A stretch of DNA of 64,000 bases from Bacteroidales bacterium (GTDB lineage Bacteria; Bacteroidota; Bacteroidia; Bacteroidales; UBA932), in contig JAEEHS010000033.1 of NCBI GenBank assembly GCA_016281015.1, forward strand, positions 31,814-95,813, read 5' to 3'. This document shows positions 18,642 to 57,527 of this stretch, piece after piece. Position numbers and translations under genes: made by a program. How positions within the stretch are numbered: the first letter of the stretch is position 1; every line of letters starts with the position of its first letter. The notes below the pieces were generated by a model. That model was not told where the DNA came from. It searched no databases and saw only the letters and a list, made by a program, of their open reading frames with translations.

Positions 18642-18651
18642 CGGGGAGACC

Positions 18652-18758
18652 CGTGAAATGGAAACAACTGATTGATAGCTACTTGCCTAATTCAACCTCT
18701 GCAATATGCGGAGGTTGAATTGCATAAAGAATTGGTAGTGAGGCGTTTCCATTTCACG
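18652..18758 (+). repeat. Family B element, copy B1 (107 bp, MITE-like)
   Basis: Perfect 14-bp terminal inverted repeats (CGTGAAATGGAAAC and its complement) enclose an internal hairpin (CAACCTCTGCA, ATAT, GCGGAGGTTG). It has the same length and layout as B2 at 56885-56991. The remaining arms differ in sequence between copies. Confidence 0.85.
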
Positions 18759-18827
18759 CCTCATTGTACCTGCGGGAGAAGCAGCTAGGGCCACGGGTTA
18801 TTGTCAGGGTGTTCCAGAGGTGCCACA

Positions 18828-19075
18828 CGGAGGGCATAGGAGCCGGAGAGGCAGGGGGCCAGCGGACGGCGTAGCCGCCCGTGGCTGCGTGAACGGGAGG
18901 GGCCCACAAGCGCAGCGACGTGGGAGGGATAGGGCCGTAGGCCCGTAACGGGCCGCTGGCCCCCTGCCCGCAGGCGACTGCCCGACGTGCCGCACCGCCC
19001 GTCCCGGACCTACAGGACGGCGGGACCTGCGGGAGAACGAAAATGGCGGAAATCGTTCGGCGGCAGGGACAGCGG
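18828..19075 (+). repeat. Family C structured element, copy C1 (candidate structured RNA)
   Basis: Conserved 5' block CGGAGGGCATAGGAGCCGGA, then an 11-bp long-range stem (GGCAGGGGGCC 18850-18860 with GGCCCCCTGCC 18958-18968) enclosing a variable hairpin, a conserved CCCACAAGCG...GTGGG hairpin and a GGGCCGTAGGCCC hairpin. A GC hairpin and an AACG...CGTT hairpin follow. C2 at 57.2 kb keeps every stem with different bases in several. No convincing reading frame is conserved. It ends in 17-bp tandem repeats (19066-19110). Confidence 0.7.
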
Positions 19076-28595: not shown

Positions 28596-29516
28596 ATGCG
28601 TTACATTCTTTGCCTGTCATACAACGGCCGGGATTTCTGCGGCTGGCAGACCCAGCCTTCCGCGCCTTCCGTCCAAGGGGCCCTTGAGACCGCCCTGTCG
28701 CGGCTTCTCGGCTGTCCTGTGGCGGTCACCGGCGCAGGAAGAACCGATACATCCGTCCATGCATCCGGATATATCGCCCACTTCGATCTGAGCGGCCCGC
28801 TGCCCTTCCCTGCAGGGGATTTCTGCTACAAAGTTAATGCCATCCTGCCCCGTTCGGTGGTGGTCCATTCCATCCTGCCGGCGAGGGATGATTTCCACGC
28901 CCGCTTCTCCGCGCGCAAGCGTTCCTATACCTATTTTCTCCACCGGGTCAAAGACCCCTTCCTGGATGCGTTTTCCTGGCAGTGCGGCTATCCGGGGCTG
29001 GATTTCGGGGCCATGAACGAGGCCTGCCATTTTCTTCTCGGGACCCACTCTTTCACTTGCTTCGAAAAGACCGGCGGAAACGCCAAGACCTCCCGCTGTA
29101 CGGTCCATGAGGCCTTCTGGAAGCCCTATACCCCATCACACATCGCTATCCTGGGCTCGCCCCGGCTCGTGCTGGGGGACGCCTGGGGGACGGCCGGCGG
29201 TGCGGGGACAGAATGGACACATGCTGACTATCAGACAGTTGCGGCATCTCCCTTCCCCCAAAACGGGGAAGGGACATCGGCTAAGTCATTGATACACAGC
29301 GCCGAGACTTTCGAGAGCAAATACTGGTACTTCCGCATCAGCGCCGACCGCTTCCTCCGCAACATGGTCCGGGCCGTCGTCGGCTCGCTCATCGAGGTCG
29401 GTCGCGGCAAACAGCGGCCTGAGTGGATCGGGGAACTGGTCATGGACGGGACGCGCTCCGACGCCGGAGAATCCGTCCCCGGCCACGCCCTCTTCCTCAA
29501 CCGGGTGGAGTACTGA
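28596..29516 (+). CDS. truA: tRNA pseudouridine(38-40) synthase TruA with a repeat-derived insertion
   Basis: Isomerises U38-40 of many tRNAs. The 306-aa protein is 45-60 residues longer than usual. It has the catalytic Asp in GAGRTDTSVHA (about 46-56), RSYTYFLHR, and FRISADRFLRNMVRAVVG near 250. Between CTVHEAFW (ends residue 175) and YFRISADRF most family members have only a few residues; here there are about 65. Residues 210-235 of that insertion (DYQTVAASPFPQNGEGTSAK...) are the translation of a 75-bp family D repeat that lies outside the gene elsewhere. The frame is kept, so the protein is probably made. The 619-aa track ORF begins antisense to moxR; ATG 28596 is the true start. Confidence 0.93.
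   Translation: MRYILCLSYNGRDFCGWQTQPSAPSVQGALETALSRLLGCPVAVTGAGRTDTSVHASGYIAHFDLSGPLPFPAGDFCYKVNAILPRSVVVHSILPARDDFHARFSARKRSYTYFLHRVKDPFLDAFSWQCGYPGLDFGAMNEACHFLLGTHSFTCFEKTGGNAKTSRCTVHEAFWKPYTPSHIAILGSPRLVLGDAWGTAGGAGTEWTHADYQTVAASPFPQNGEGTSAKSLIHSAETFESKYWYFRISADRFLRNMVRAVVGSLIEVGRGKQRPEWIGELVMDGTRSDAGESVPGHALFLNRVEY
29224..29298 (+). repeat. Family D repeat, copy D1, inside truA
   Basis: 75 bp, same length as D2 and D3 without gaps. Central hairpin TCCCTTCCCC-CAAAAC-GGGGAAGGGA (10 bp), ends CTGACTATCA and GCTAAGTCATTGATA. 75 bp is 25 codons and the phase used has no stop. Confidence 0.92.
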
Positions 29517-29527
29517 CAACCTCCCTA

Positions 29528-29602
29528 CTGATTATCAGACAGTTACGCAATTTCCCTTCCCTGATTTGGTGGAAGGGACATCAGCTAAGTCGTTGATATT
29601 CA
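29528..29602 (+). repeat. Family D repeat, copy D2, between truA and the second RAYT
   Basis: 75 bp: CTGATTATCAGACAGTTACG at the left end, hairpin TCCCTTCC...GGAAGGGA, ACATCAGCTAAGTCGTTGAT at the right. It lies at the 3' side of the RAYT, 55 bp from its stop. Confidence 0.92.
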
Positions 29603-29656: not shown

Positions 29657-30580
29657 CTACATCCGCCGGAGTTCTAGATGGAGGAACTTGGCAATCTGCT
29701 CCGAGCGGGCATAACTGGCTTCCCTCAGAACGGGAAATAACTGCTGCCGATGCGCTGTTTCCATGGCGAGAAAGGCTTTCGGATTGGATGGATACTGCTT
29801 TTCCATGACCGAGAACATGGGACCATAATCCCTGTCACTGACCCCACAAAAGGATTCCTTGATGTCGTATTCCGCCCCCGTATTGGAATTGACGGCCAGA
29901 AGCATGGATTCATAGCTACCATACAAACGGATAGACGCTTGATAGTCAATGACATTATAAGCACAGATAATACGGTCCGTCAGCTGAAACTGTTCTTTCT
30001 CACTGAGCCCGTCAAATAGGCGGCCCAGAAGCGGATAAGTAAGCGGTCGACCTGTCCTGGCCAGACTGTCCACATATTCGATGGCCCATCTCAAATGGGC
30101 AGAAGGGCGACCCGATGAAAGTGGAGAGGAGAAAGGATGGTCGCTGACGGCATAGGCGAGGAAGTTCCACTGGTAATCCTCCGCCCGCTTGGTCAGTTTC
30201 CTTTCCGGCCCATTGTTGGCAAGATAGGCAAAGGCTGTACGAAGCTGCTTCTCTCTTTGTTTCAGTGCACTGCCATACGTCTCAAACACCGGTCCCTTCC
30301 GTCCACAGGATGCGTTCCAGGCCTTGGCGAACCAAGCGTGGGTTTCCCTTTCGTAGCAGATCCGGTCTTGCTCATGGGCCGCACGGACCAGTTCATGGAT
30401 ATGGTCGACCATCAGGCAAAGACCCATCACGTCAATCTGGTACTTCCTGGCCACGACCGAGACAATGCTGAAATAGACCAATCGGTCATGGACACTGTAG
30501 AACAGCAGGCCGCCGTCACAGCTTCTCCTGTAAATGTGCTCCCATGCTCCCGGGATGAATTTTCGAATCTGACCCCTCAT
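29657..30580 (-). CDS. Second REP-associated Y1 (HUH) transposase, RAYT-like
   Basis: A 307-aa protein unrelated in detail to the first RAYT but of the same class. The HUH motif is in LCLMVDHIHELVRA (about 66-79), and FAYLANNGPERKLTKR (about 135-150) contains the probable nucleophile Tyr. The C-terminus (ARSEQIAKFLHLELRRM) looks like a DNA-binding helix pair. It is flanked by family D repeats on both sides (D2, D3), and D1 sits in truA. The track start at 30619 is a TTG; the ATG at 30580 is preferred, with a TTACTTTG box about 40 nt upstream. Key residues seem intact. Confidence 0.8.
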   Translation of the reverse strand: MRGQIRKFIPGAWEHIYRRSCDGGLLFYSVHDRLVYFSIVSVVARKYQIDVMGLCLMVDHIHELVRAAHEQDRICYERETHAWFAKAWNASCGRKGPVFETYGSALKQREKQLRTAFAYLANNGPERKLTKRAEDYQWNFLAYAVSDHPFSSPLSSGRPSAHLRWAIEYVDSLARTGRPLTYPLLGRLFDGLSEKEQFQLTDRIICAYNVIDYQASIRLYGSYESMLLAVNSNTGAEYDIKESFCGVSDRDYGPMFSVMEKQYPSNPKAFLAMETAHRQQLFPVLREASYARSEQIAKFLHLELRRM

Positions 30581-30675
30581 ACGCTTTGATGATTTGCATG
30601 GACGACTTGTCCATTGCAAAGTAAAGGAATCGTTTCGGAAAAAGCAAGGATTTTTCTACATTTTTTATGTATGTG

Positions 30676-30750
30676 TTGACTATTAAATAGTTACGCAATG
30701 TCCCTTCCCTGATTTGGGGGAAGGGACATCAGCTAAGTCATTGATAATCA
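30676..30750 (+). repeat. Family D repeat, copy D3
   Basis: 75 bp with a 12-bp stem ATGTCCCTTCCC...GGGAAGGGACAT and the right end TTGATAATCA, which is the complement of the left end TGATTATCA of D2. It lies upstream of the second RAYT. The rest of the 30580-30841 gap holds GC-rich non-coding sequence. Confidence 0.92.
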
Positions 30751-56799: not shown

Positions 56800-56884
56800 T
56801 GTGCGTGCGGGGGCGGCTTTGTGTGTGCGGGGCGGCCTTTGTGCGCGAGCGGGCGGGGTGACACTAGCTCGAAACGAGGACAGC

Positions 56885-56991
56885 CGTGAAATGGAAACAA
56901 TTGAGCAACAGTAAATTATGACTTTCAACCTCTGCATTATGCAGAGGTTGGATTGCATAACTCATTGATGGATATGAGTTTCCATTTCACG
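56885..56991 (+). repeat. Family B element, copy B2 (107 bp, MITE-like)
   Basis: Same 14-bp terminal inverted repeats (CGTGAAATGGAAAC) and same 107-bp length as B1 (18652-18758). Internal hairpin CAACCTCTGCATTATGCAGA, then GGTTG. Both copies are followed by GCCTC and a CCTGCGGRAG motif. Confidence 0.85.
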
Positions 56992-57122
56992 CCTCGGAGG
57001 GCCTGCGGAAGGAACTGCTGGGGCTGCTGGTCTGGTGGTGCTGCTGGACTGATGGGTTACAGGCCTGCGGGGCTGCGGGGTGTTCATCAGCATCTTTGTA
57101 AACTGCTGCTATTCAACACCTT

Positions 57123-57227: not shown

Positions 57228-57527
57228 CGGAGGGCATAGGAGCCGGAGAGGCAGGGGGCCGAGGATGGCATGGCCACCCTGTGCACCCCAGCCATCTGAG
57301 ATGGCCGGGGACCCCGACGGCCGTGTTAGAGGGAGGGGCCCACAAGCGAAGCGCAGTGGGAAGGATAGCCCCGAAGGGGCGTACCAGCCGAGGCCCCCTG
57401 CCTGCAGGCGACTACCCGACGGGCGAGAGCGAGCCCTTCCGCCCCGACACCCTTCGGCCACGCCCCGCCGTGACCTGCGGAAGAACGGAAAAGGCCGATA
57501 GCGTTCGGCGGCAGGGACGGCAGGATG
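57228..57527 (+). repeat. Family C structured element, copy C2 (candidate structured RNA)
   Basis: Begins with the same 33 bases as C1 (CGGAGGGCATAGGAGCCGGA...). The 11-bp stem is GGCAGGGGGCC (57250-57260) with GGCCCCCTGCC (57392-57402). Inside: a longer variable hairpin than in C1, the conserved CCCACAAGCG...GTGGG hairpin, and CCCC-GAA-GGGG in place of C1's GGGCC-GTA-GGCCC. A 3' block ACCTGCGGAAGAACG...GCGTTCGGCGGCAGGGAC is shared with C1. Confidence 0.7.

Follow-up and report, generated by a model that had tools for sequence, protein, structure and literature searches.

Previous work showed that RAYT genes can have palindromic repeats on their flanks, or terminal inverted repeats that are partly self-complementary, in arrangements called REPtrons and TIRtrons (PMC3733652). 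Palindromic repeats are also found within genes across many bacteria, and in-frame elements have been credited to Rickettsia (PMC3733652). For example, truA of Stenotrophomonas maltophilia contains a REP and truB of Rickettsia conorii contains RPE-1, while the recB genes of two Xanthomonas species have different REPs at roughly the same position (PMC3733652). Furthermore, CGTC-tagged REPs have been reported from Bacteroidetes as well (PMC3733652). This general REP survey was the only literature that we found on the phenomenon in Bacteroidales. Intragenic REPs, the palindromic elements of Rickettsia and palindrome-flanked RAYTs are known already (PMC3733652). What is new here is that a single loop has been used repeatedly, by at least five repeat families in one uncultured Bacteroidales genus, with differences between near-identical genes and with a candidate enzyme alongside.

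The DNA analyzed here (the window) is a stretch of 64,000 nucleotides from an uncultured Bacteroidales bacterium. It contains a truA gene, a RAYT-like gene and three copies of a repeat that we call the D element (Table 1). The initial annotation described three gap-free 75-bp copies. Three gap-free copies were found, with 78-100% identity to D2 (78% for D1), while the length proved to be 74-75 bp: the alignment common to the copies spans 74 nt, and an extra leading C is present in 8 of 10 copies. As in REPtrons and TIRtrons, a gene, here for a putative HUH/Y1 transposase, has copies of a genome-dispersed palindromic repeat on both sides. The arrangement differs from these systems in that D2 and D3 repeat a near-palindrome in direct orientation, and in that RAYT-hairpin pairs are numerous in the Bacteroidales genus of the host. 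D1 resembles RPEs and intragenic REPs, by description, in being a palindrome in frame in the gene for a conserved protein and absent from this site in related proteins; to this extent the likeness to Rickettsia elements drawn in the initial annotation is apt. Unlike in those cases, at least five repeat families occupy one loop within one Bacteroidales genus, sister species differ in the repeat that they carry, and a candidate mobilizing enzyme adjoins one of the families.

Table 1. Features of the truA and RAYT region, numbered from the first nucleotide of the window.
Feature	Position	Strand	Description
truA, tRNA pseudouridine(38-40) synthase	28596..29516	+	306 aa, open and complete through the insert
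Variable TruA loop, predicted disordered	29157..29312	+	residues 188-239, between strands 167-177 and 243-250
D1	29225-29298	+	in-frame copy within truA, about TruA residues 210-235, ADYQTVAASPFPQNGEGTSAKSLIHS
D2	29529-29602	+	intergenic copy; gap of 54 bp to the RAYT gene (stop-codon end)
RAYT-like Y1/HUH transposase gene	29657..30619	-	320 aa; HUH in VDHIHELV, Tyr in AYLANNGPERKLTKRAEDYQW
D3	30677-30750	+	intergenic copy; gap of 57 bp to the RAYT gene (start-codon end)

The truA gene was expected to stay open and to gain about 25 residues from the repeat, and this is what its reading frame shows: D1 lies in frame and supplies 25 residues. The product scored 146.7 bits against NCBIfam TIGR00071, exceeding the cut-off, conserved TruA residues are present on either side of D1, and the part after the insert is ~65-85% identical to congeners. 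The loop is 66 residues long, compared to 16-20 for the majority of congeners and 4 for each of two order-level relatives. These loop lengths, together with the near-absence of D from relatives (see below), show that the segment is missing from related TruA proteins. Approximately 48 loop residues are extra; 25 of these are D1 and ~23 others lie mostly just before it, fewer than the ~40 unexplained residues first counted there. We considered that the 84 nt ahead of D1 might be another repeat, but dropped this idea because they are single-copy in the genome.

An AlphaFold2 model of TruA, made with a 16-row alignment, had a mean pLDDT of 80.6, and residues 188-239 were the only stretch below 50. 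It superimposed on E. coli TruA (1dj0) with a TM-score of 0.86 (target length) and an rmsd of 1.7. The insert was modeled as part of a disordered segment between two strands, with the remainder confident. Thus, in the model, the TruA sequence and predicted fold are shown to be intact around the insert, which occupies a predicted surface-exposed, fold-neutral position. We infer that TruA with the insert is a functional enzyme carrying a disordered loop.

We searched the host genome (2.35 Mb in 84 contigs, 84% complete) for further copies of D. Ten were found, nine of them intergenic, and D1 alone lies in a gene. The match of D1 to the genome-wide family (E = 7e-12) excludes chance likeness. The seven copies beyond the window are on other contigs between genes such as lgt/pgk and aspS/murB, these names being mostly taken from translations. 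The family is nearly absent from 109 relatives, with matches in only 2 of 110 genomes, i.e., the host genome itself and one congener (a weak match), indicating that D1 is a lineage-specific insertion. An alignment of the ten copies revealed an invariant core, TCCCTTCCC..GGAAGGGA, within long imperfect arms. Nine copies start with TGA and one with TCA, and nearly all end with TCA or similar. The GTAG or CGTC tag was absent from the ends of the ten aligned copies, in which respect D differs from REPtron and TIRtron repeats and is nearer to the self-complementary type. Like MITEs, D is short, non-coding, has inverted-repeat structure and lacks a transposase gene of its own; unlike MITEs, it showed no target-site duplication around its copies by eye, and its partner enzyme would be of the Y1/HUH rather than the DDE type. 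The phase that is read in truA (+2) is stop-free in 6 of the 10 copies, and an open phase is therefore a common property of the element.

Single-strand folding of the three window copies beat shuffled sequences, with z scores of -2.9 to -5.0. The fold energy of D1 was -12.4 kcal/mol (z -2.9), compared to -10.8 for D2 and -15.2 for D3, in agreement with the proposal that its hairpin equals those of the intergenic copies. However, the further proposal that pairing in D1 was kept despite changed bases was not supported. Covariation in the arms over the ten copies was no higher than in shuffles, and there is thus no sign of selection keeping D pairing. The 26-nt core of D1 has 3 and 2 mismatches to the reverse complement of D2 and D3, respectively, and 7 and 6 in the direct orientation, whereas its arms fit D2 and D3 directly, with 9-10 mismatches of 48 versus 20-21 when reversed. 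From this comparison, the hairpin core of D1 looks inverted relative to D2 and D3, and a flipped core would be a simpler cause of its differing loop-proximal bases than kept pairing.

An HUH motif and a tyrosine region are visible in the RAYT-like protein. It matched NCBIfam REP_Tyr_transpos over residues 52-151 (1.6e-5; 24.8 bits, below the cut-off of 80) and Pfam Y1_Tnp under the cut-off (0.0048). The same genome has homologous RAYT genes, and three Y1_Tnp matches there are above the cut-off. A PDB sequence search with the protein returned no match. As first described, D2 and D3 flank this gene, here termed RAYT-like. Homologs of it were detected in 30 of 73 genomes, each of them from the same genus, and the hairpins beside them differ from gene to gene. 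Because RAYTs of the genus commonly have gene-specific flanking hairpins, as in REPtrons and TIRtrons, D is likely the partner of its neighboring RAYT, and may be moved by it.

We consider it highly probable that D is a non-autonomous mobile palindrome, that the RAYT-like gene which it flanks is its partner, and that a copy of D entered a tolerant loop of truA in frame. In the mechanism that we propose, a single D copy would have inserted in this lineage, in frame, into a loop on the TruA surface, with the RAYT presumably moving D through single-strand cutting and joining like that of its IS200/IS605 relatives. Given a disordered, tolerant loop and a stop-free D phase, TruA would gain ~25 residues and should remain functional. 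The loop would be generally tolerated as a landing place, where sister species have other, unrelated repeats, and tolerance rather than targeting would underlie its repeated use.

Alternatively, D might have been spread or placed by another agent, such as a different HUH transposase, or template switching during replication where hairpins occur, leaving the RAYT as a chance neighbor. For other families in the loops described below, e.g. GTCATT-type REPs, no RAYT partner was identified here, CGTC REPs occur without a dedicated transposase (PMC3733652), and the inverted core of D1 suggests in-place rearrangement of hairpins as well. Nevertheless, D2 and D3 are positioned almost symmetrically around the RAYT gene, at 54 and 57 bp. 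Moreover, among the 25 RAYT genes of the genus with enough flanking sequence, 31 of 50 flanks carried a gene-specific hairpin whose arms were 13 bp or longer, versus 3.6% of shuffled flanks. A chance association is accordingly rather unlikely, in our judgment.

We gathered 68 truA genes from this genus, using draft genomes, one per species. Short palindromes of the GTCATTTCGAG or GTCATTCCCGG type were present in the loops of G063, G056, G050 (two genes), G003 and G053, and long-hairpin elements in those of G068, G005, G028, G036 and G044; the G036 row is a partial sequence, whose insert matches the long-hairpin family core in part only. By BLAST-based family assignment, the repeats to which the congener inserts correspond are present in multiple copies in the genome concerned or in sister genomes. 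Those of G003 and G053 start with CGTC and have an 8-bp stem and a short loop, like CGTC REPs and unlike D, although they occupy the same loop in sister species. Separately, the truA loop of G046 (L123; compare L110 of G023) is encoded by a perfect or near-perfect 31-bp inverted repeat (-86 kcal/mol) that is single-copy in G046.

In a TruA tree built without the loop, a quick tree with many weak forks, 11 of the 12 repeat-bearing genes, including the one studied here, fell in one 13-row clade (SH-aLRT 95), with G044 outside it. Hence, 11 of the 13 clade genes have repeat-derived inserts, comprising D and at least three other families, and one further family is present in a truA gene outside the clade. 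The two exceptions are G037, with a normal loop, and G019, with a small palindromic loop. Pairs of closely related genes gave the strongest evidence: the TruA cores of G003 and G063 are 95% identical, as are those of G050 and G053, and each pair has different repeats in the loop. G005 and G037 TruA are 93% identical and have loops of 62 and 17 residues, with and without an insert, respectively. Since near-identical pairs differ in this way, the truA loop is, at the sequence level, a recurrent landing site for different mobile repeats that enter it or replace one another.

The long-hairpin family has ~10 copies in the host genome, four of which are in frame in genes, namely those for a YgiQ-family radical SAM protein, an aminotransferase-like (PLP) protein, MtaB, and a methyltransferase-like protein with no library match. 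In MtaB and YgiQ, several congeners have long-hairpin elements in the same loops, and other congeners have short loops there. These observations bear on the possibility that the inserted hairpin is kept because it is useful, either by controlling truA expression as an mRNA structure or by giving TruA a new binding surface. The inserts in 11 of 13 truA genes of one clade are all hairpin-capable, as this would predict. However, their families, lengths and reading frames vary, clade member G037 has no insert, and D pairing shows no compensatory excess. MtaB and YgiQ loops behave like that of TruA, and tolerance is therefore favored over a useful hairpin, which we regard as improbable. An assembly or binning artifact is very improbable: the assembly is fragmented (84 contigs, 84% complete) and repeats are prone to misassembly, but the insert keeps the frame, D1 is distinct from D2 and D3 (78% identical to D2), and independently assembled congeners have a like insert at the same loop. 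The idea that D1 is native truA sequence and D2 and D3 are decayed pieces of truA, to which the spacing of just ~300 bp between D1 and D2 lends itself, was rejected and has next to no chance of being right, because seven copies lie dispersed on other contigs between unrelated genes and relatives lack the segment.

Tolerated insertion of mobile palindromes, the reading that we prefer, would allow the addition of protein segments by mobile DNA to be studied as a natural experiment. Near-identical enzymes in sister species are distinguished mainly by the loop repeat, so the cost or use of an insert is directly measurable. It would also widen the known range of intragenic palindromic elements, which are best known in Rickettsia, to include a large uncultured Bacteroidales genus. 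D is paired with a candidate mobilizing enzyme that is testable in vitro, and the peptide region DYQTVAASPFPQNGEGTSAK is a proteomic target for the TruA insert.

The orientation of long-hairpin elements varies between species. In YgiQ, the outer arms are common to G000 and G036/G005 and the core is reversed. Comparison of these sequences suggests that in-place flipping, and not always new insertion, accounts for some of the orientation differences. Opposite orientation at one site was dropped as proof of independent insertion because cores seem to flip, both in D1 and in YgiQ. A more tentative proposal, which we hold to be possible but doubtful, is that certain loops of housekeeping enzymes in this genus (TruA, MtaB and YgiQ) are standing pads which several palindromic repeat families enter, displacing one another and inverting their cores in place, and that the long-hairpin family may form its arms in part from host sequence when it inserts. 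If so, such loops would provide a continuing, genus-wide supply of new protein segments, and host-derived arms would represent a new mode of insertion.

Several further observations were made on these elements. Copies of the long-hairpin family (L194, L203, L211, L215, L200, L207, L206 and others) have a conserved small-hairpin core and closing arms of 17-30 bp, which are near-perfectly complementary and differ at almost every locus; in the orthologous copies L211 and L220, both arms have changed together. Searching the long-hairpin loci against Rfam yielded no family (one meaningless weak miRNA match). Same-loop in-frame elements were seen in several congeners in mtaB (L226, L208, L222, L280) and ygiQ (L309-L311, L315), and also in folP, encoding dihydropteroate synthase (L206, L221). 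The murB gene of the host genome (L023:2079-3239) has an extra segment resembling an in-frame relative of the long-hairpin family.

A scan of the whole window for long hairpins, with thresholds that miss the D hairpins, found four versus 0-1 in shuffles, none of them clearly in a real gene. GC-rich, long-armed elements with arms GGCAGGGGGCC.., related to the in-gene long-hairpin family, are located at 18850-18968 and 57249-57403. They stand near intergenic copies of another palindromic element (18648-18762 and 56882-56994), which has outer arms CGTGAAATGGAAAC and an inner hairpin TTCAACCTCTGCA. The hairpin of this latter element resembles the flank of another RAYT gene (L060, C37:27269), and a second RAYT-hairpin pair in the genome is therefore likely.
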